DNA of 35,665 nucleotides from a virus, in the IMG/VR virus record IMGVR_UViG_3300020421_000070, positions 1-35,665 of that record, one strand, 5' to 3'. Positions within the stretch are counted from its first letter, which is position 1. The number at the start of each line of letters is the position of its first letter. This document shows positions 11,983 to 35,665 of this stretch, piece after piece. The notes under the pieces are model-generated. The model had not been told where the DNA came from. It saw only the letters and a program-made list of their open reading frames with translations, and did no database searches. The translations under genes were made by a program, and so were the position numbers.

Positions 11983-13029
11983 TCATCTTACGTTGTGTCC
12001 GCCAAACATAGCTCTCATACCATTCAAAACCTTGGACGCGAAAGCACCCAGACGGCGCGACTCAAAACGTGTCCAGAGCGCACTGCTGATAACAGGAGTG
12101 GGTACACCAAGATCCACAGCAGCGTGAATAGTCCAACGTCCTTCACCAGAGTCTGATACTCCCCCATCAAACTTGCTAAGCTCGTTATCGCTGCGTAGTA
12201 CATCAGCGGTAAGATCAAGCAACCAACTGCCAACCACGCTACCACGACGCCATAACTCAGCAACTTCAACACAGTCAATATCATATTGATAATCTTCTGG
12301 ATTCTCCATCGGAGCCACCTCAGCGTCTCCTTCCTTGACATATTGAGATCCTGCATTTGCTTCATGGAGAATGTTGAATCCTTCTGCATATGCTTGCATG
12401 ATTCCATACTCAACTCCGTTATGAACCATCTTTACAAAATGTCCAGCACCTGGTGGTCCACAATGTAACCAACCATACTCAGCACTGGTTGCCCTAGTAC
12501 ATGGGTCTGTGCGGGTTGCAGCGGTAATACCAGGTGCGAGGGCACGGAAAATGGGGGAACAGACAGATACTGCGCCAGTTGAACCACCAACCATAAGACA
12601 GAATCCACGGTCCAAACCGTAAACACCACCACTAGTACCACAATCAATATACTGGATGCCCAGTTTCTCAAGACGTTGTGCCCTCCTCCTGGAATCCTTA
12701 AAGTTGCTATTGCCATGATCAATAATAATATCCCCGTCGCTAAGTAGTGGTAATAACTCATTGATAGTTTCCTCTACTAATTCTGCTGGGATAACAAGTT
12801 GAAAAATGCCAGGAACTTTACCTGCACTTGTGTGAACCTTTTTGTCAGATTTAACTGCTTGAACAAGATACTCTAGTGAAGTTGCACACCCACTGATATA
12901 TCCAGCTTCATACTGTTCACATGCTTTCTCGTAGTTATTTCTGTACCCCCAAACTTCGATGCCCGATTTAATCATACGGCGAGACATACCCTCACCCATA
13001 CGACCAAGACCAATCATTCCAACTTTCAT
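11983..13029 (-). CDS. gnd: 6-phosphogluconate dehydrogenase (decarboxylating)
   Basis: Gnd oxidises 6-phosphogluconate to ribulose-5-phosphate and CO2, producing NADPH. It is a well-known cyanophage auxiliary gene thought to push the host toward the pentose phosphate pathway for nucleotide synthesis. The 348-aa protein has a Rossmann motif at the N-terminus (GLGRMG, 7-12), the substrate loop CGTSGGVYG (SGG 133-135) and the catalytic helix HFVKMVHNGVEYG with K200, N204 and E207. The ATG at 13029 is set by GAGG 6 nt upstream; an earlier TTG at 13047 is less likely. It is shorter than the ~470-aa bacterial enzyme and matches the short type. Confidence 0.95.
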   Translation of the reverse strand: MKVGMIGLGRMGEGMSRRMIKSGIEVWGYRNNYEKACEQYEAGYISGCATSLEYLVQAVKSDKKVHTSAGKVPGIFQLVIPAELVEETINELLPLLSDGDIIIDHGNSNFKDSRRRAQRLEKLGIQYIDCGTSGGVYGLDRGFCLMVGGSTGAVSVCSPIFRALAPGITAATRTDPCTRATSAEYGWLHCGPPGAGHFVKMVHNGVEYGIMQAYAEGFNILHEANAGSQYVKEGDAEVAPMENPEDYQYDIDCVEVAELWRRGSVVGSWLLDLTADVLRSDNELSKFDGGVSDSGEGRWTIHAAVDLGVPTPVISSALWTRFESRRLGAFASKVLNGMRAMFGGHNVR

Positions 13030-13047
13030 TTTTACCTCAAAAAACAA

Positions 13048-28661: not shown

Positions 28662-29351
28662 CTAAAAGTAGAGTCTAGCAAGTCCCTCATATGGAACATA
28701 GAAATGACCTTGGAAAGTTATTCTATATTCATTTTTGCCCAGAGAAAATTTTCCTATCCTATGCGGAAGTATTCCATTCCAAAAATAGATAGATCCAGGA
28801 TCATATTCAACCTTCTCACTATGTTTCCAAAGATCATCATCAATACAGATGTCAAGAAAAGCAGGAGTCTTTGGAGACTCTATTACAGAAACAAATGAGA
28901 CTATCTTTCCTGGACTCAGATCTGGATAATAATCCAAGATGCCCATGTCCGTATGAACATTCCATTCAGGCATATTCAGTTCTTCTCCACCAAATACATG
29001 AAATGCTGGAAGAGTTAGATTGTAGTCAAACTCAACTACAAGTCCGAATTCTCTGTTTATTATATAAAAAAGATGTCGATATAACCAGTCAAATCTTGCC
29101 CTGAGTTTTCCTTGCAAGACTCTATCTATCTCATGTGTTACTGGTCCAGTATCTTTAGTGTGAATCAGATAGATGGCATCTCCCAATATATGTTGAATTT
29201 TTTGGGTATCATTTGGAGTAAAATTTTTCCACCTATCATATTCAGTAAAGTTTTTCCAATACTTGCGTAGGGAATGAACTTCATTCTTAATAAAATTAAC
29301 TTGAGAATTTGTTAAAAAGTTATCAACCTTTCTCACTAAAGATTCTTGCAT
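28662..29351 (-). CDS. Putative 2OG-Fe(II) oxygenase-like protein, 229 aa
   Basis: Residues 130-215 look like an oxygenase barrel: H133-x-D135 in EWNVHTDMGILDYY, H197 in FWNGILPHRIGKF, and R210 in YRITFQGHFY. The N-terminal ~115 residues are helical and charged, with no family recognised. The triad is well placed, but overall similarity is weaker than for the other three oxygenases in the window. It lies between a 110-aa unknown and the Sm-like genes, on the same transcript. Substrate unknown. Confidence 0.68.
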   Translation of the reverse strand: MQESLVRKVDNFLTNSQVNFIKNEVHSLRKYWKNFTEYDRWKNFTPNDTQKIQHILGDAIYLIHTKDTGPVTHEIDRVLQGKLRARFDWLYRHLFYIINREFGLVVEFDYNLTLPAFHVFGGEELNMPEWNVHTDMGILDYYPDLSPGKIVSFVSVIESPKTPAFLDICIDDDLWKHSEKVEYDPGSIYFWNGILPHRIGKFSLGKNEYRITFQGHFYVPYEGLARLYF

Positions 29352-29684
29352 CTATCCACCTAGCGTTGGATCATCTATTGGTATATACTTATGCATAAAG
29401 GATGATATCGATTCAGCATCTTGGTCAGATTGTTCCTGTTCTCTATGTTTTCTCCACATCTCAGCAACCATATCTACTTTAGGTGGTGCCTGATATGGTG
29501 GTGATGGTTGTGATTGCCACTTATCAATTGCTTCCTGTGTAGGCACAGTAATTCTGAAGGGATAATCTTCCTCCTCAAACTCCGTATTCATATCAATATA
29601 TGTTTGAGGAGTAATCTTAATCTTCTTTGGTTGGTGCATCTTTTGGTACTGATTAGCACCTAAGTTGTCTAGAAAATCATTCAT
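29352..29684 (-). CDS. Hypothetical protein, 110 aa
   Basis: This acidic, Gln/Pro-rich protein looks partly disordered: MNDFLDNLGANQYQKMHQPK at the start, a beta-like YPFRITVPTQEAIDKW, then SQPSPPYQAPPK. A helical segment VDMVAEMWRKHREQEQSDQD follows. Its ATG overlaps the PurC stop (ATGA). No catalytic or binding motif is evident. Its pattern of short linear stretches suggests a partner-binding protein, which is only a guess. Confidence 0.7.
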   Translation of the reverse strand: MNDFLDNLGANQYQKMHQPKKIKITPQTYIDMNTEFEEEDYPFRITVPTQEAIDKWQSQPSPPYQAPPKVDMVAEMWRKHREQEQSDQDAESISSFMHKYIPIDDPTLGG

Positions 29685-30379
29685 TGAACTGCCAAGGGTT
29701 GTAATCGGTCAAGAATCTGACGATAGGCAGGAACGATATCACCTTCGTCTTTTCGGAATAAATCTTTATCAAATCTTTCGTTACTACCAATCTTCCATAG
29801 TCTCATACTATCAGGACTGATTTCATCTGCAAGATACAAATCACCGTGAGCATCATAACCATACTCAACTTTAAAATCTACAAGATCGATGCCCATGATG
29901 TAAAACATCTGACGAAGATAATCATTGATCCGTAGTGTCATCTCAATAAAAGGTTCAGGATCATATCCCATTAATTTTACACGATCAGGTGTAAGCAAAG
30001 GATCATGTTTACTATCATCCTTTAAGAAAAACTCAACAATAGGGTGTGGTAGTGGAGCACCTTCTACTAAAGTTGTTTCTCTTACAATAGATCCAGCAGC
30101 ACGATTCCTACAAATAACTTCTAGTGGAACAATATCTACCTTCTTACAAATCATTTTATTAGCACCAACCATATTAATATAATGAGTTGGAATAAGTTCT
30201 TTGGAAAGTTTTTCAAAAATAATAGATGAGATACTACAGCAGAGGGATCCTTTTCCTAAAGGATGATCAACCATCTCACCGTTACCAGCTGTTACCTTAT
30301 CGTGATACTCAATAATAACACGATCAGCATCGTCACCTTGATATACTGTTTTTACTTTTCCTTCTACAATTACTTTCAT
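29681..30379 (-). CDS. purC: SAICAR synthetase
   Basis: PurC joins CAIR and aspartate in step 7-8 of de novo purine synthesis, using ATP. The N-terminal EGKVKTVYQGDD, the VICRNRAAGSIVRET segment and the C-terminal SAICAR signature (LVDFKVEYGYD, then LADEISPDSMRLW) are all present. At 232 aa it matches bacterial PurC. Purine-synthesis genes are frequent in T4-like cyanophages, fitting a high demand for purine nucleotides. It overlaps genes on both sides by ATGA. Confidence 0.97.
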   Translation of the reverse strand: MKVIVEGKVKTVYQGDDADRVIIEYHDKVTAGNGEMVDHPLGKGSLCCSISSIIFEKLSKELIPTHYINMVGANKMICKKVDIVPLEVICRNRAAGSIVRETTLVEGAPLPHPIVEFFLKDDSKHDPLLTPDRVKLMGYDPEPFIEMTLRINDYLRQMFYIMGIDLVDFKVEYGYDAHGDLYLADEISPDSMRLWKIGSNERFDKDLFRKDEGDIVPAYRQILDRLQPLAVQ

Positions 30380-31405: not shown

Positions 31406-31413
31406 TATTTAGA
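31406..31413 (-). promoter_or_regulatory. TCTAAATA box at the hsp20 stop codon, before the terminator
   Basis: TTCTAAATACTT includes the hsp20 TAA stop. A transcript started here would meet the terminator within ~60 nt. Either a chance consequence of Phe-stop codons, or a promoter for a very short RNA. Confidence 0.3.
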
Positions 31414-31843
31414 ACCATACTTTTCTAAGATGGTGGTCAGGGACAACCTTACCTAGTTCAACCGTCAATAGCCCATCCTCAAAGACAACCGAGCGAATCT
31501 CTGTATCGTCAGAGATAGTCCAACTACGGACGAATGATCTTTGAGCAATGCCTCGATGGGCATAGGTATCTTGAGACTCATCTTCTTTCTTTCCTTCAAT
31601 GAAGAGTTTCCCAAATTCTGTGAAGACATTTACCTCTTCCTTTTTAAATCCTGCAAGTGCAATTTCAAGCCTAAACTCTACATTGTTTACTTGGACAAGA
31701 TTGAATGGAGGGTAATTGCTAACCGATTCATTGAGAGTAAAGATACGATCAAAATAATCGTCCATCCCAATGGCATTACGAGTGATTCGATCAAACAACT
31801 GAGGAAGATCAGACGCTTGATATCTTTGTAGGTTTCCACCCAT
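31409..31843 (-). CDS. hsp20: Small heat-shock protein (Hsp20/alpha-crystallin)
   Basis: This ATP-independent holdase prevents protein aggregation; cyanophage hsp20 is a well-known accessory gene of T4-like cyanophages. The alpha-crystallin domain spans about residues 44-135, from YPPFNLVQ through IALAGFKKEEVNVF to the signature FEDGLLTVELGKVVP. The C-terminal I-x-I/V oligomerisation motif common in cellular sHsps is not evident in the short tail (DHHLRKVWF). AAGGAG lies 9 nt before the ATG. It forms a single-gene unit with its own promoter and terminator. Confidence 0.95.
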   Translation of the reverse strand: MGGNLQRYQASDLPQLFDRITRNAIGMDDYFDRIFTLNESVSNYPPFNLVQVNNVEFRLEIALAGFKKEEVNVFTEFGKLFIEGKKEDESQDTYAHRGIAQRSFVRSWTISDDTEIRSVVFEDGLLTVELGKVVPDHHLRKVWF

Positions 31844-31901: not shown

Positions 31902-31940
31902 TATTTAGATATTATACCATAAAAAAAGGAGGGTGGTAAA
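31902..31940 (-). promoter_or_regulatory. Overlapping sigma70-type and late-type promoter for hsp20
   Basis: TATAAT at 31911-31916 is a perfect bacterial -10 hexamer, with TTTACC (4/6 match to TTGACA) 18 nt upstream at 31935-31940. TCTAAATA follows at 31902-31909. Together they could allow host polymerase and the phage late factor to use nearly the same start. The leader to the ATG is about 55 nt. Confidence 0.6.
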
Positions 31941-31946
31941 CCCCCC
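31921..31946 (-). terminator. Probable terminator after regA
   Basis: A short G-C stem (GGGGGG-TTTA-CCACCC with one mismatch) is followed by TCC and seven T residues, 5 nt past the regA stop. It overlaps the -35 of the hsp20 promoter. Confidence 0.7.
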
Positions 31947-31951
31947 AAGAA

Positions 31952-32386
31952 TTATACGGTTTCCACCTTTTTCTTTTTACCAATATTATACTTTGTCTCT
32001 AGTGTCCAGTCATTTTTATCTTTATAAGATAAGACCTTGATTTGATTTAGAGGAGCAACATCAGTAGTATCGTCAGGCTTGACAATATTGATAAGTCCCC
32101 AATCACTCAAGAGATTAATGATGCGATTACGCCTTTGCACATCATTAATAGTAAGGTTAGCATGTTTACCATCCAAGGCAAACAGTTCCTTAAAGTGGAC
32201 AATATAATATCTACCCTGTTTATGAAGAATGTGACAGGATTGATAGATCTTTTTTTCTTTGCGAGAAGCTACACCGATTCTTGTTAGAGTTTCACGAACC
32301 TTTAGAAAATCATCAGGTTCATTTAGTGTCACTTCTACCATCTGATCGGCAGACCAGTTAACTTCAGGCTCTGCAAATGCAGTCAT
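31952..32386 (-). CDS. regA: RegA translational repressor
   Basis: RegA binds the start regions of many early T4 mRNAs and blocks their translation. The central part is close to T4 RegA in memory: VEVTLNEPDDFLKVRETLTR, YQSCHILHKQGRYYIVHFKE, then LLSDWGLINI and WTLETKYNIG. At 144 aa it is longer than T4 RegA (122 aa) because of an N-terminal extension of about 15 residues (MTAFAEPEVNWSADQ) and a Lys-rich end. The ATG overlaps the gp62 stop (ATGA), and the gene ends in a terminator. Gene order 44...62-regA is the T4 order with insertions. Confidence 0.95.
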   Translation of the reverse strand: MTAFAEPEVNWSADQMVEVTLNEPDDFLKVRETLTRIGVASRKEKKIYQSCHILHKQGRYYIVHFKELFALDGKHANLTINDVQRRNRIINLLSDWGLINIVKPDDTTDVAPLNQIKVLSYKDKNDWTLETKYNIGKKKKVETV

Positions 32387-32763
32387 TTTGTACCTCCAAC
32401 GTCAAGTCGTTCTCTAATGTAGTCCAGTTGTTTCGTATTTAGAATCGTCAAAGCTTGCATTGCTTTTTCATTACTATAACCATAGTATTGTTTTACAAGA
32501 TCAAGATCTTTAATTTTTTCTTTTCGGAGCCAAGGAGAGAATCTCTTCTTTTTCCTGAGACTATTTAGATAAAAGTCATATTGGAGTTTGTTTGGCAATT
32601 GATGAGACAAATTCATCTCATTAGCGAACATGATAGTATCCAGAAACCCAGACAGGCACTTGTTTATAATAAAAGCAGGGTACTTCTTTTCACGATCAGG
32701 ATCTTCTTTGATAAGATCTTGTTTGTTGAAGTTAATAGAGTTCAACCAGTCTTTGAGTTCCAT
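32383..32763 (-). CDS. gp62: Clamp-loader small subunit (T4 gp62-like)
   Basis: gp62 joins four gp44 subunits to load the sliding clamp. The 126-aa protein has the conserved-looking KKYPAFIINKCLSGFLDTIM and FYLNSLRKKKRFSPWLRKE segments, with a Y/K-rich end. It is shorter than T4 gp62 (187 aa), as is usual for cyanophages. Position directly before regA agrees with T4 synteny. The 5' end overlaps the upstream gene by 22 nt. Confidence 0.88.
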   Translation of the reverse strand: MELKDWLNSINFNKQDLIKEDPDREKKYPAFIINKCLSGFLDTIMFANEMNLSHQLPNKLQYDFYLNSLRKKKRFSPWLRKEKIKDLDLVKQYYGYSNEKAMQALTILNTKQLDYIRERLDVGGTK

Positions 32764-32945
32764 TCTTTTTTCACTTTAAAGTACATTTTATAGTATCGTC
32801 CTTTCATTTCTTCAAGGACTTTCATGTCATCACCAAATCCCATATACTTGAGATTCTGATATGTTCCCTCAAGGTCACTAATAAGCAACAAGATATTGAC
32901 AGGAGATACCTCTCTGCCACCGTACTGATATTTTTTAGGTATCAT
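32742..32945 (-). CDS. Hypothetical protein, 67 aa
   Basis: The protein starts MIPKKYQYGGREVSPVNILL and continues with a helix ISDLEGTYQNLKYMGFGDDM and a basic/aromatic end (MKGRYYKMYFKVKKEWNSKT). The start shares TAATG with the preceding 46-aa gene. It lies within the clamp-loader operon, immediately before gp62, and could be a fork-associated factor; there is no motif to support this. Confidence 0.68.
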   Translation of the reverse strand: MIPKKYQYGGREVSPVNILLLISDLEGTYQNLKYMGFGDDMKVLEEMKGRYYKMYFKVKKEWNSKTG

Positions 32946-33085
32946 TAGAATTTAGCAGTAACACTAACAACAGTTGCCCCAGGATTTCTTGCTAGAGCGA
33001 CTTCCCTAGCATCTTGATAATCCCTTGCAATCACAGTTTCTTTAAATACCTTTCCCGCCTTGAACAGAGTTACTTCACAAGTCAT
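32945..33085 (-). CDS. Small conserved-looking protein, 46 aa
   Basis: The frame reads MTCEVTLFKAGKVFKETVIA and RDYQDAREVALARNPGATVV before ending SVTAKF. A beta-beta-alpha-beta pattern with an ARDYQDAREVALARNP helix is evident. The ATG overlaps the stop of the 376-aa gene (ATGA) and its stop overlaps the next ATG (TAATG), a chain typical of genuine genes here. I recall the same short protein in other cyanophages, unnamed. Confidence 0.7.
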   Translation of the reverse strand: MTCEVTLFKAGKVFKETVIARDYQDAREVALARNPGATVVSVTAKF

Positions 33086-34212
33086 CGGATAATATCAATC
33101 TCATCAGGATTTGTATTCCAAGTTTCAAGTTTAGTCCGAAGTCTACCCTCAGACTTTAGTTTCTCATATCGTTTAGAAGCTTTATTCTTCCACCAAGTAA
33201 TCAAGTTCTCAGTGTAAAACTTTTCATAATTCTGTCCAGGACAGAGAGTTTCTTGTTGACCAAGAATAACTTCACGAGCATTACCGAATCCATAGTCAGA
33301 CATATAGAAACGTTTTTGTTCAGTCAGATTTTTTGCACTTACAATCGCAGTTTGGAACTCCGCAACCTTTTGAGAAGGTAAGTTTTTCTTGATGATTGAT
33401 ATCATCTTCTGTTGCGTTTTGAGTTTGCGGCTCGATGCGTCCTCTTTCACTAGGAGTTTGTCGTTGTTCCTTGCGATAAACCATTTGTTCAGGTCCTTAA
33501 AGATATCGTCGTGTAGAAGGGGTGTAAAATCGCTGTCAGTGAGTCCCTTATACCTCATGTAGGGTTTGAGACCATCGTACTGTGAGGAGGACTTTGTAGA
33601 CCCGTACAGGGACGTTGTTTCAAACAGGCAGATGTTAGAACCGTACTTACTATTTAACTGTTCTCTAGCGGCATGTGAACAACAGAGAAGTGCCAGAAGT
33701 TTACCTCCCAGATAATTAAACCCGAAAGGCTGAGTTGGGACAATGACAAATCCCATGATTGCATGTCGATTGAATCTACTGAGTTCTGGAGTATCTCCCA
33801 GCCACTCATTGCGAGGTTTACTATTAATAGTAGGAGAACCGAACCTAATAAATCCAAGAGTCTTATTAGTATTCTTTTCCTGGATAATCCACTTCAGAGA
33901 TTTTCCAGGAATGGAAGTTTCAAAAGCATGAGACATCGTGATTTGAAGTCTCTCATTAAAATATTCATTCGGAAAAGAATCTGTTCTATCTTTTTGACCA
34001 GCTGGATAAATTTTGATATCCATGTCTTGCGGATGCATGTCAAAGTCACTGAAGAGATCATCCTCAGGTCTCATACCAAAAAGAGATTGTGGTTGGTCAG
34101 CAATACGATCTAGTTTGATCGTGCGAAGATATTCATCAATCCTTCCCGTGTTTGAAAAGTAATTGATGAACTTACTAGCTGCATACACCGCATCCGTTTC
34201 ACTTAGCTGCAT
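33082..34212 (-). CDS. Protein of 376 aa, possibly DUF4338/DruA-related
   Basis: Not firmly recognised. The centre has LGFIRFGSPTINSKPRNEWL (120-139), FVIVPTQPFGFNYLGGKLLA (155-174) and CLFETTSLYGS (195-205) before SQYDGLKPYMRYKG. This series (small-residue beta hairpin, R-N-x-WLG, FxIVP..., a GGKLLALL helix, LFETTSLYGST) resembles DUF4338, the family of Druantia protein DruA, and the GGKLLALL loop is also GNAT-like. The C-terminal third is helical and basic. The first codon of the longest frame is TTG (34218); ATG 34212 is preferred, though AAGGAG is close to the TTG. It lies within the clamp-loader operon, so a role in replication or counter-defence is conceivable. Confidence 0.72.
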   Translation of the reverse strand: MQLSETDAVYAASKFINYFSNTGRIDEYLRTIKLDRIADQPQSLFGMRPEDDLFSDFDMHPQDMDIKIYPAGQKDRTDSFPNEYFNERLQITMSHAFETSIPGKSLKWIIQEKNTNKTLGFIRFGSPTINSKPRNEWLGDTPELSRFNRHAIMGFVIVPTQPFGFNYLGGKLLALLCCSHAAREQLNSKYGSNICLFETTSLYGSTKSSSQYDGLKPYMRYKGLTDSDFTPLLHDDIFKDLNKWFIARNNDKLLVKEDASSRKLKTQQKMISIIKKNLPSQKVAEFQTAIVSAKNLTEQKRFYMSDYGFGNAREVILGQQETLCPGQNYEKFYTENLITWWKNKASKRYEKLKSEGRLRTKLETWNTNPDEIDIIR

Positions 34213-34361: not shown

Positions 34362-34655
34362 TCAGATAATCAGTTTCTTTTCTTCTGGAGTAACAAGTTT
34401 ACTCCCGAAAATCTCATTATACTTGGTCCTGACAGATTCATCAACTTCTACCATGTAAATTACATGGGACTTTGAGACTGTAATTTCTGGATTGTCCTTA
34501 GAAATTACTGTAGCCCAAGGAGCAAATCCAACATTCTGTGCTTGTGGGATTACCACAAGACCATTCTTGATAGTAATACTATCTTCAGTTTCTGATACCA
34601 GTTCGGCCACGACTTCTTCACCAGTCATGATACGAATCAATTTTGCATTAATCAT
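34362..34655 (-). CDS. Putative Sm-like protein, 97 aa
   Basis: The N-terminal MINAKLIRIMTGEEVVAELV with the TGEE turn and the following SETEDSITIKNGLVVIPQ give an Sm1-like series of strands; VGFAPWATVISKDNPEITVS and HVIYMVEVDES resemble the Sm2 part, and a helix (VRTKYNEIFGSKL) ends it. It is the most typical of three related proteins in this window. The ATG overlaps the gp44 stop (ATGA), so it is strongly tied to the clamp loader. Nucleic-acid or partner binding is the general expectation for Sm rings; no phage role is established to my knowledge. Confidence 0.75.
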   Translation of the reverse strand: MINAKLIRIMTGEEVVAELVSETEDSITIKNGLVVIPQAQNVGFAPWATVISKDNPEITVSKSHVIYMVEVDESVRTKYNEIFGSKLVTPEEKKLII

Positions 34656-35605
34656 TTGAATTCACACTCCACCATAATTTCAGTCATCGCAGCAAGCAAG
34701 TTAATTTCTTGATCTGCTACGAACGCGATCTGATACTGATATTTAGCAATAATGAGGACAGCAGCAGCAACACTAGGACCGTCAAGGGTTTCAAAAAGAG
34801 CATCATAAAGACGACGGAGAAGTACACTAGGATCATTGTCCAAACTATTGACGACCCATTTACGTACTTCGGGAAACTTCTTATTCTTAAGCGCCTTGAT
34901 AAGGTCTTGAATATGGACATCGGAAAAGTTAGCAAGGATAGAAGAGTCAATTTCTCCTGAAGATGCATGTCTTTGACATTCATTCAAGACACGTCTCCAG
35001 TCAGGAAAGTGTTTGTTAATTAGTTCTGCTAAGACTTTTGGATCAGATTTAATACCTTCCGAATCCAAGATTGTTTGGAGTCTTTTGAAGAACTTGGAGG
35101 CAATGGCAGGTTTATGTTTTCCTGTAATTCCAAATTCGATGACGGAACATCTGGATTGGATTGGTTCGACAATTCTGTTTCGGTAGTTACAGGTAAAGAT
35201 GAATCTGCAGTTTTTATAAAACGTCTCAATATTTGCCCGTAGTAGGAGCTGTACGTCGTGGGTCGTGTTGTCAGCTTCATCGATAATGATGACTTTGTGC
35301 TTTGCATCAGTTCCCGAAAGTGATACGGTCGAAGCAAAGTTCTTGGCTTGATTCCGTACAGTGTCAAGAAATCTACCTTCGTCGGATCCGTTGATGACAT
35401 AGTAATCTACTCCAAGTTCATTACATAACGCTTTAGCAATCGTTGTTTTACCAATACCAGGAGGTCCAGCAAGAAGCAAGTTAGGAATCTCACCTTTCTC
35501 CAAAAATGACATGAAAGTTTTTTTGGTATCCTCTGGAAGAATACATTCTTCAATAGTCTTAGGTCGATACTTTTCAACCCAAAGAAATTCGTCACGCATA
35601 ATCAT
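34652..35605 (-). CDS. gp44: Clamp-loader large subunit (T4 gp44-like AAA+ ATPase)
   Basis: gp44 opens and loads the gp45 sliding clamp using ATP. From the ATG at 35605 (317 aa) the AAA+ motifs are Walker A GPPGIGKT (47-54), Walker B KVIIIDEAD (D109, E110), and the SRC motif (151-153 in EPIQSRCSVIEF). The N-terminus WVEKYRPKTIEECILP is the family signature. ATGs at 35605 and 35599 are both possible (an earlier TTG at 35611 is unlikely); there is no clear ribosome site, suggesting coupling to the upstream frame ending at 35592. T4 gp44 has 319 aa. Confidence 0.95.
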   Translation of the reverse strand: MIMRDEFLWVEKYRPKTIEECILPEDTKKTFMSFLEKGEIPNLLLAGPPGIGKTTIAKALCNELGVDYYVINGSDEGRFLDTVRNQAKNFASTVSLSGTDAKHKVIIIDEADNTTHDVQLLLRANIETFYKNCRFIFTCNYRNRIVEPIQSRCSVIEFGITGKHKPAIASKFFKRLQTILDSEGIKSDPKVLAELINKHFPDWRRVLNECQRHASSGEIDSSILANFSDVHIQDLIKALKNKKFPEVRKWVVNSLDNDPSVLLRRLYDALFETLDGPSVAAAVLIIAKYQYQIAFVADQEINLLAAMTEIMVECEFK

Positions 35606-35665
35606 AATCAATAATAAATTTATCTTTCAAGTGCCAGTGAATGTCATCATGCACTTGTTGCATTG
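35592..35665 (-). CDS. 3' end of a truncated upstream gene
   Basis: One of three minus-strand frames stays open to the window edge and ends in TGA at 35592, inside the start of gp44. It encodes VHDDIHWHLKDKFIIDYDYA at its C-terminus, a natural-looking acidic/aromatic end. In T4 the preceding gene is 45 (sliding clamp), but this sequence does not look like a clamp C-terminus I know, so an intervening small gene is more likely. Confidence 0.45.
   Translation of the reverse strand, partial: MQQVHDDIHWHLKDKFIIDYDYA

Follow-up and report, generated by a model that had tools for sequence, protein, structure and literature searches.

A DruA-like protein of predicted GNAT fold alternates with a DNA adenine methyltransferase in the clamp-loader operon of T4-like cyanophages: a candidate DNA-modifying enzyme

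In T4-like cyanophages, the slot between the clamp-loader genes gp44 and gp62 holds either a DNA adenine methyltransferase (Dam) or a DruA-like GNAT protein, and never both among the surveyed loci. The two are unrelated genes that have been repeatedly exchanged at one position. We consider it probable, with moderate confidence, that the DruA-like protein is a DNA base-acylating anti-restriction enzyme that fills the role of Dam by a different chemistry, where we infer the donor, the DNA substrate, the target base and the protection. This reading is based on the protein family, the predicted fold, an invariant motif-A-like loop, the exchange in the slot and the finding that most carriers have no other recognised methyltransferases.

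The DNA analysed, referred to here as the window, comprises positions 1 to 35,665 of the IMG/VR record IMGVR_UViG_3300020421_000070 (35,665 nucleotides). The DruA-like reading frame starts with the ATG at 34212 and its stop codon ends at 33082 on the minus strand. It lies in a T4-like cyanophage replication operon with the order gp44, 97-aa ORF, DruA-like gene, DUF7212 ORF, gp62, regA and hairpin (Table 1). Other genes near the replication genes encode a 6-phosphogluconate dehydrogenase (11983-13047), a PurC-like SAICAR synthase (29681-30379) and a small heat-shock-type protein (31409-31843). A 229-aa ORF (28662-29351) shows, by eye only, an H-x-D...H pattern, which is characteristic of 2OG-Fe(II) oxygenases.

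Table 1. Features of the replication operon and of the DruA-like protein, in window coordinates.
Feature	Position	Strand	Basis
gp44, clamp-loader ATPase bordering the slot upstream	34652..35611	-	
97-aa ORF, phrog_527, between gp44 and the DruA-like gene	34362..34655	-	
DruA-like (PF14236/DUF4338) GNAT-fold protein, 376 aa	33082..34212	-	Pfam match and AlphaFold2 model
GNAT-like core, residues 105-224: strands 105-112, 117-125, 151-159, 196-201 and 220-224; helices 169-190	33541..33900	-	AlphaFold2 model
Motif-A-like loop, residues 161-172 QPFGFNYLGGKL, past the third core strand	33697..33732	-	alignment and model; putative motif assignment
Residues 199-212 TTSLYGSTKSSSQY, next core strand and the loop behind it	33577..33618	-	alignment
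C-terminal part, residues 235-376, mostly helical, basic	33085..33510	-	model and alignment
67-aa ORF, DUF7212 (PF23848), between the DruA-like gene and gp62	32742..32945	-	Pfam
gp62, clamp-loader subunit bordering the slot downstream	32383..32763	-	
RegA translational repressor	31952..32386	-	
Terminator-like hairpin, closing the operon past regA	31927..31946	-	

An earlier note, made from the sequence alone, had described the 376-aa protein as DUF4338/DruA-like and as lying inside the clamp-loader operon, and both statements were confirmed. The HMM comparison which it had proposed gave a PF14236 match at residues 99-201 (E=1.5e-11, 44.5 bits against a curated gathering cut-off of 27), covering only profile positions 77-180 of 297. 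The contrary outcome that it had named, some other fold lacking DUF4338 similarity, did not occur. PF14236 was also matched by every sequence of a 110-member alignment that combines the window protein with environmental relatives (best 1.6e-24), and the hit of the window protein is therefore not a chance one. PADLOC DruA1 gave a weaker match (1.2e-5). The PHROG family is phrog_19197 (E=4.5e-194), for which PHROG gives no function label. Nothing meaningful was returned by NCBIfam, no homologue was detected in a sequence search against solved structures, and the protein has no Pfam match to the D12 methyltransferase family (PF02086). The literature search found no paper on the cyanophage DruA-like gene or the gp44-gp62 slot. 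Depositor labels of two homologues (S-SCSM2R, ‘methylcarbamoylase mom’; S-CREM1, ‘iron-binding protein’) were excluded as evidence.

The structure was modelled with AlphaFold2 from the 110-sequence alignment (pLDDT 92.2, pTM 0.88). Searched against the PDB with Foldseek, the model gave a top list made up of GNAT-fold proteins throughout, with E-values of 0.015 or worse and none at E<=0.001; whole-chain TM-scores were low because of extra domains. The modelled protein is of the GNAT acyltransferase fold, though every PDB match has E>0.001. Among viral models (BFVD), the best matches were three uncharacterised giant-virus proteins (A0A3G4ZXG3, A0A5K0UAJ3 and A0A3G4ZRA1, from Faunusvirus, Yasminevirus and Dasosvirus), with E-values from 4e-16 to 2e-8, ahead of every named protein. 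These were followed by an uncultured phage protein, an amidoligase-annotated protein, a GNAT acetyltransferase and Mom of Salmonella phage FSL SP-031 (S4TTR0; prob 1.00, E 4e-3, TM by target length 0.56). DUF4338 has also been termed a GNAT domain in a reappraisal of DndABCDE (PMC10853773).

The earlier note had suggested a nuclease-like or DNA-modifying replication factor. The nuclease part did not hold against the GNAT fold of the model. That the protein is a nuclease-like replication factor is extremely unlikely: the location in a replication operon would fit, but there were no nuclease matches in Pfam or in Foldseek against the PDB, and the gene is missing from most phages that share the same replisome. 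The replication-factor part was likewise not upheld, as the gene occupies other replication or recombination loci in other phages and most cyanophages carry Dam instead. DNA modification was the best of the options proposed.

In GNAT proteins, the motif A loop Q/R-x-x-G-x-G/A binds the CoA pyrophosphate. Eight residues of loop 161-172 (Q161, P162, G164, N166, G169, G170, K171 and L172) were invariant in the 110 sequences, giving the pattern Q-P-x-G-x-N-x-x-GGKL. The loop would thus have the position and the pattern of the GNAT acyl-CoA motif A, with Q161-x-x-G164-x-N166 ending in N rather than in G/A. T199-L202 and Y212 were also invariant, as were R301, W341 and R348 in the C-terminal part, which is a possible nucleic-acid-binding region.

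For most characterised GNATs, the acceptor is an amine of a protein or of a small molecule. The DruA-like protein could accordingly acetylate a protein, such as the host RNA polymerase, a restriction enzyme or a subunit of the phage replisome, instead of DNA. The predicted GNAT fold and the acyl-CoA-like motif would suit this, as would the usual substrates of the fold, and a phage precedent exists in the GNAT Rac of phiKMV-type phages, reported to acetylate RNA polymerase in work cited in PMC7824862. We regard it as not very likely, since protein acetylation does not predict the exchange with Dam in one slot, the fusions to ParB domains or the relaxed avoidance of RGCY sites described below.

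The prototype of a phage-borne DNA modifier with a GNAT fold is Mom, which modifies adenine in the DNA of phage Mu. The predicted fold of the DruA-like protein is shared with Mom (structural match prob 1.00). The motif at the presumed donor loop differs, there is no adjoining com gene, and profile comparison with a small Mom alignment gave an hhalign probability of 0.5. Membership of the Mom family by sequence was rejected on this value, which comes from 6 Mom sequences only. With a GNAT-like fold and loop and no Mom profile homology in this comparison, the modelled protein is best termed GNAT-like; it plausibly works like Mom but is not classed as one.

The DruA proteins of Druantia and of plasmids share the Pfam domain, above cut-off, with the phage protein. 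The plasmid homologues and the phage motif also have the pattern PPYNxLLGGKL and TTSxxGxSSxYNRLK in common; the best plasmid matches (P. putida, Nitrosococcus) have about 23% identity over half of a clade II query (see below). Unlike in Druantia, the phage gene sits in replication operons without the Druantia partner genes. Neither the DruE helicase nor any other Dru partner was found: the neighbours are gp44, gp62 and regA, and the ten other large ORFs of the window belong to phage replication, metabolism, tail and unknown families. Identity as a Druantia system was therefore rejected. A GNAT domain annotated DUF4338 is also fused to DndF in DNA phosphorothioation-linked restriction; it is of the same domain family in a restriction setting, and has been read as a co-effector targeting self-molecules, not as a DNA modifier (PMC10853773).

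A D12 DNA adenine methyltransferase occupies the gp44-gp62 slot in phages such as Bellamy and ACG-2014d. It belongs to a protein family and cofactor class unrelated to the DruA-like GNAT. In RegA-anchored loci with both gp44 and gp62 (n=49), the slot held Dam in 34, DruA in 10, another gene in 1 and both in 0, and was empty in 4; under independence, and ignoring relatedness, zero overlap has a chance of 3.7e-7. Dam lay in the slot in 66 of the 66 Dam-anchored loci holding both borders. INPHARED records named Synechococcus gave 376 with gp44, 330 with Dam (including a distant, unlinked Dam in S-SCSM2R) and 25 with the DruA-like gene, and records named ‘Cyanophage’ gave 61, 60 and 1, respectively. 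On a tree of gp44, gp62 and regA (126 rows), 25 changes between Dam and DruA were needed, at least 14 of them forced by well-supported branches.

A D12 Dam above cut-off was found in 2 of 32 DruA-bearing whole records (S-SCSM2R, G005), away from the DruA-like gene. None of the 14 DruA-bearing isolate or single-cell cyanophage records matched the C5 methylases (PF00145) or the N6/N4 methyltransferases (PF01555), and D12 was absent from 13 of them. The slot is empty in many HTVC008M-like phages.

The slot might instead be an insertion or recombination hotspot, with Dam and the DruA-like gene as unconnected cargo swapped only through shared flanking homology. Slot exclusivity by itself is compatible with such allelic replacement, small unrelated ORFs are sometimes seen in the slot, and the DruA-like gene also occurs elsewhere, between gp43 and uvsX and beside gp46/47. 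We judge the cargo explanation unlikely because 44 of the 49 RegA-anchored slots held one of the two genes and none held both, because phage S-B68, whose DruA gene lies elsewhere than in the slot, nevertheless lacks Dam throughout its record, and because RGCY avoidance tracks slot content in independent pairs.

A DruA-like protein with the look of an acyl-transfer enzyme, repeatedly replacing a DNA-methylating gene, probably places a new protective mark on viral DNA. In the favoured base-acylation reading, the GNAT-fold DruA/DUF4338 acyltransferase would act on the phage's own DNA, most likely by attaching a small acyl-type group, taken from a CoA-like donor, to an exocyclic amino group on a base. 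Produced together with the replication machinery, it would shield newly copied phage DNA from host restriction, and would thus be a functional alternative to the Dam-type adenine methyltransferase in the slot.

With tblastn, the DruA-like gene was found in 31 phage records, nearly all from Synechococcus phages, the remainder being pelagiphages and two marine virus records from single cells; many carriers are cultured isolates, among them S-SSM7, S-SM2, S-CAM9, S-T4 and HTVC008M. Relatives in IMG/VR numbered at least about 590 contigs per scan, in several scans, and the family is abundant in marine T4-like phages. Two clades were distinguished. Clade I, to which the window protein belongs, has about 350-380 aa and occupies the gp44-gp62 slot in cyanophages; in the HTVC008M-like set, retrieved with the copy of that pelagiphage, it mostly lies between gp43 and uvsX. 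Clade II (about 430 aa) is of the Pelagibacter phage Mosig type and mostly has gp46/gp47 within its flanks. The gene is thus general to replication and recombination regions and is not a fixed part of the clamp loader. HTVC008M encodes both clades (86143-87255 and 99541-100656), and in three loci (L153, L327, L328) clade I and clade II paralogues stand side by side, which suggests that the two may work as a pair.

Two DruA-domain proteins carry an N-terminal ParB_N domain, L331:1800-3608 (E 5.5e-5, just under the Pfam cut-off) and L337:1154-2911 (E 2.9e-6, over it). ParB-like genes also adjoin Mom homologues in Microbacterium phages. Both fit a DNA-directed role of the DruA-like protein, as supporting but weaker evidence. 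Further ParB-DruA fusions were not found in IMG/VR with the L337 protein as query, and its single-sequence structure model (pLDDT 35) was not used.

Two side observations concern other replicons. In the regions L325:3647-8433 and L326:3647-8660, plasmid DruA genes precede large unknown proteins (one has a CoiA N-terminal match, one is coiled-coil), and these may form a multi-gene locus for defence or modification that has not been described before. Pieces of cyanophage-like DruA, gp62, regA, hsp20 and gp43 lie in a 5.16-Mb contig whose title names the chromosome of a Thermoplasmata archaeon (L349; CP070751.1, 1618605-1635282), which looks like mis-assembly or contamination.

The earlier note had also raised the idea of a decoy, for which nothing was found; the gene behaves as an allelic alternative to a methyltransferase. 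A role as decoy or inhibitor, directed at a Druantia-like host defence or at another that uses DruA, would draw on the shared PF14236 domain only. It is very improbable given the abundance of the family in marine T4-like phages, the invariance of the motif-A-like residues and the replacement of an enzyme gene.

Sequence avoidance was assessed with Markov-corrected 4-mer counts in DruA and Dam loci, with the slot gene masked. GGCC gave the largest difference among the 16 palindromic 4-mers (0.74 in DruA vs 0.30 in Dam loci, pooled, p=1e-7), and TGCA and AGCT also differed. RGCY was less avoided with DruA (0.61 vs 0.32, p=1.7e-8). In 14 phylogenetically independent pairs the direction was the same in 8.4 and opposite in 0.1 (median sign p 0.008). 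Only YGCR shifted among seven other motif classes with R/Y ends, weakly and short of significance in independent pairs. The RGCY difference was also seen away from the slot in 20 DruA and 16 Dam genomes (0.69 vs 0.35, p=0.004) and survived GC correction (t=3.2 and 5.3); GGCC alone ranked fifth of 136 4-mers in this away-from-slot sample (p=0.0017). Among isolates grouped by recorded host, RGCY values were 0.87, 0.84, 1.14 and 0.26 with DruA vs 0.39 and 0.20 with Dam for WH7803, 0.72, 0.47 and 1.06 vs 0.28 for WH8102, and 0.71 vs 0.17 for WH8109.

The RGCY hypothesis was formed post hoc on the first set, so that only a follow-up sample, chosen after it, comes near a clean test, and a modest one. 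There the effect was weaker but still present (RGCY 0.66 with DruA vs 0.38 with Dam, one-sided p=0.04; GGCC two-sided p=0.013). Most of these contigs had given their slot region to the earlier analysis, and they therefore add new DNA, though from phages that are not entirely new. The signal was uneven, as the DruA carriers S-SRM01, S-B68, S-CREM1, G013 and G014 still avoid RGCY strongly. The closest tree neighbour of S-SRM01 carries Dam, which would fit a recent acquisition of DruA. GATC avoidance showed no consistent difference between Dam and DruA types. Two further observations were made on other sites: CCGG is almost absent (observed/expected 0.00-0.12) in whole-genome samples of many cyanophages of both DruA and Dam types, and S-RIM8 (L583) strongly avoids GATC (0.11) although it encodes Dam in the slot and, at record position 31993, another gene annotated as an adenine methylase.

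If caused by the enzyme, the GGCC/RGCY signal points to G or C as the target. A narrower and rather doubtful proposal would be that the DruA-like GNAT writes an N-acyl mark on guanine or on N4 of cytosine in GC-centred sites such as GGCC/RGCY, as the second kind of GNAT DNA modification after Mom, and that Druantia DruA also acts as, or derives from, a base-modifying enzyme.

If the base-acylation reading is true, one of the commonest phage groups of the ocean would have an unrecognised DNA-modifying enzyme, with an acyl-type mark in place of methylation. It would explain why some cyanophages tolerate the GGCC/RGCY sites that their Dam-bearing relatives avoid, and a testable chemistry would be gained for the DruA/DUF4338 family, so far without an explained role in Druantia.
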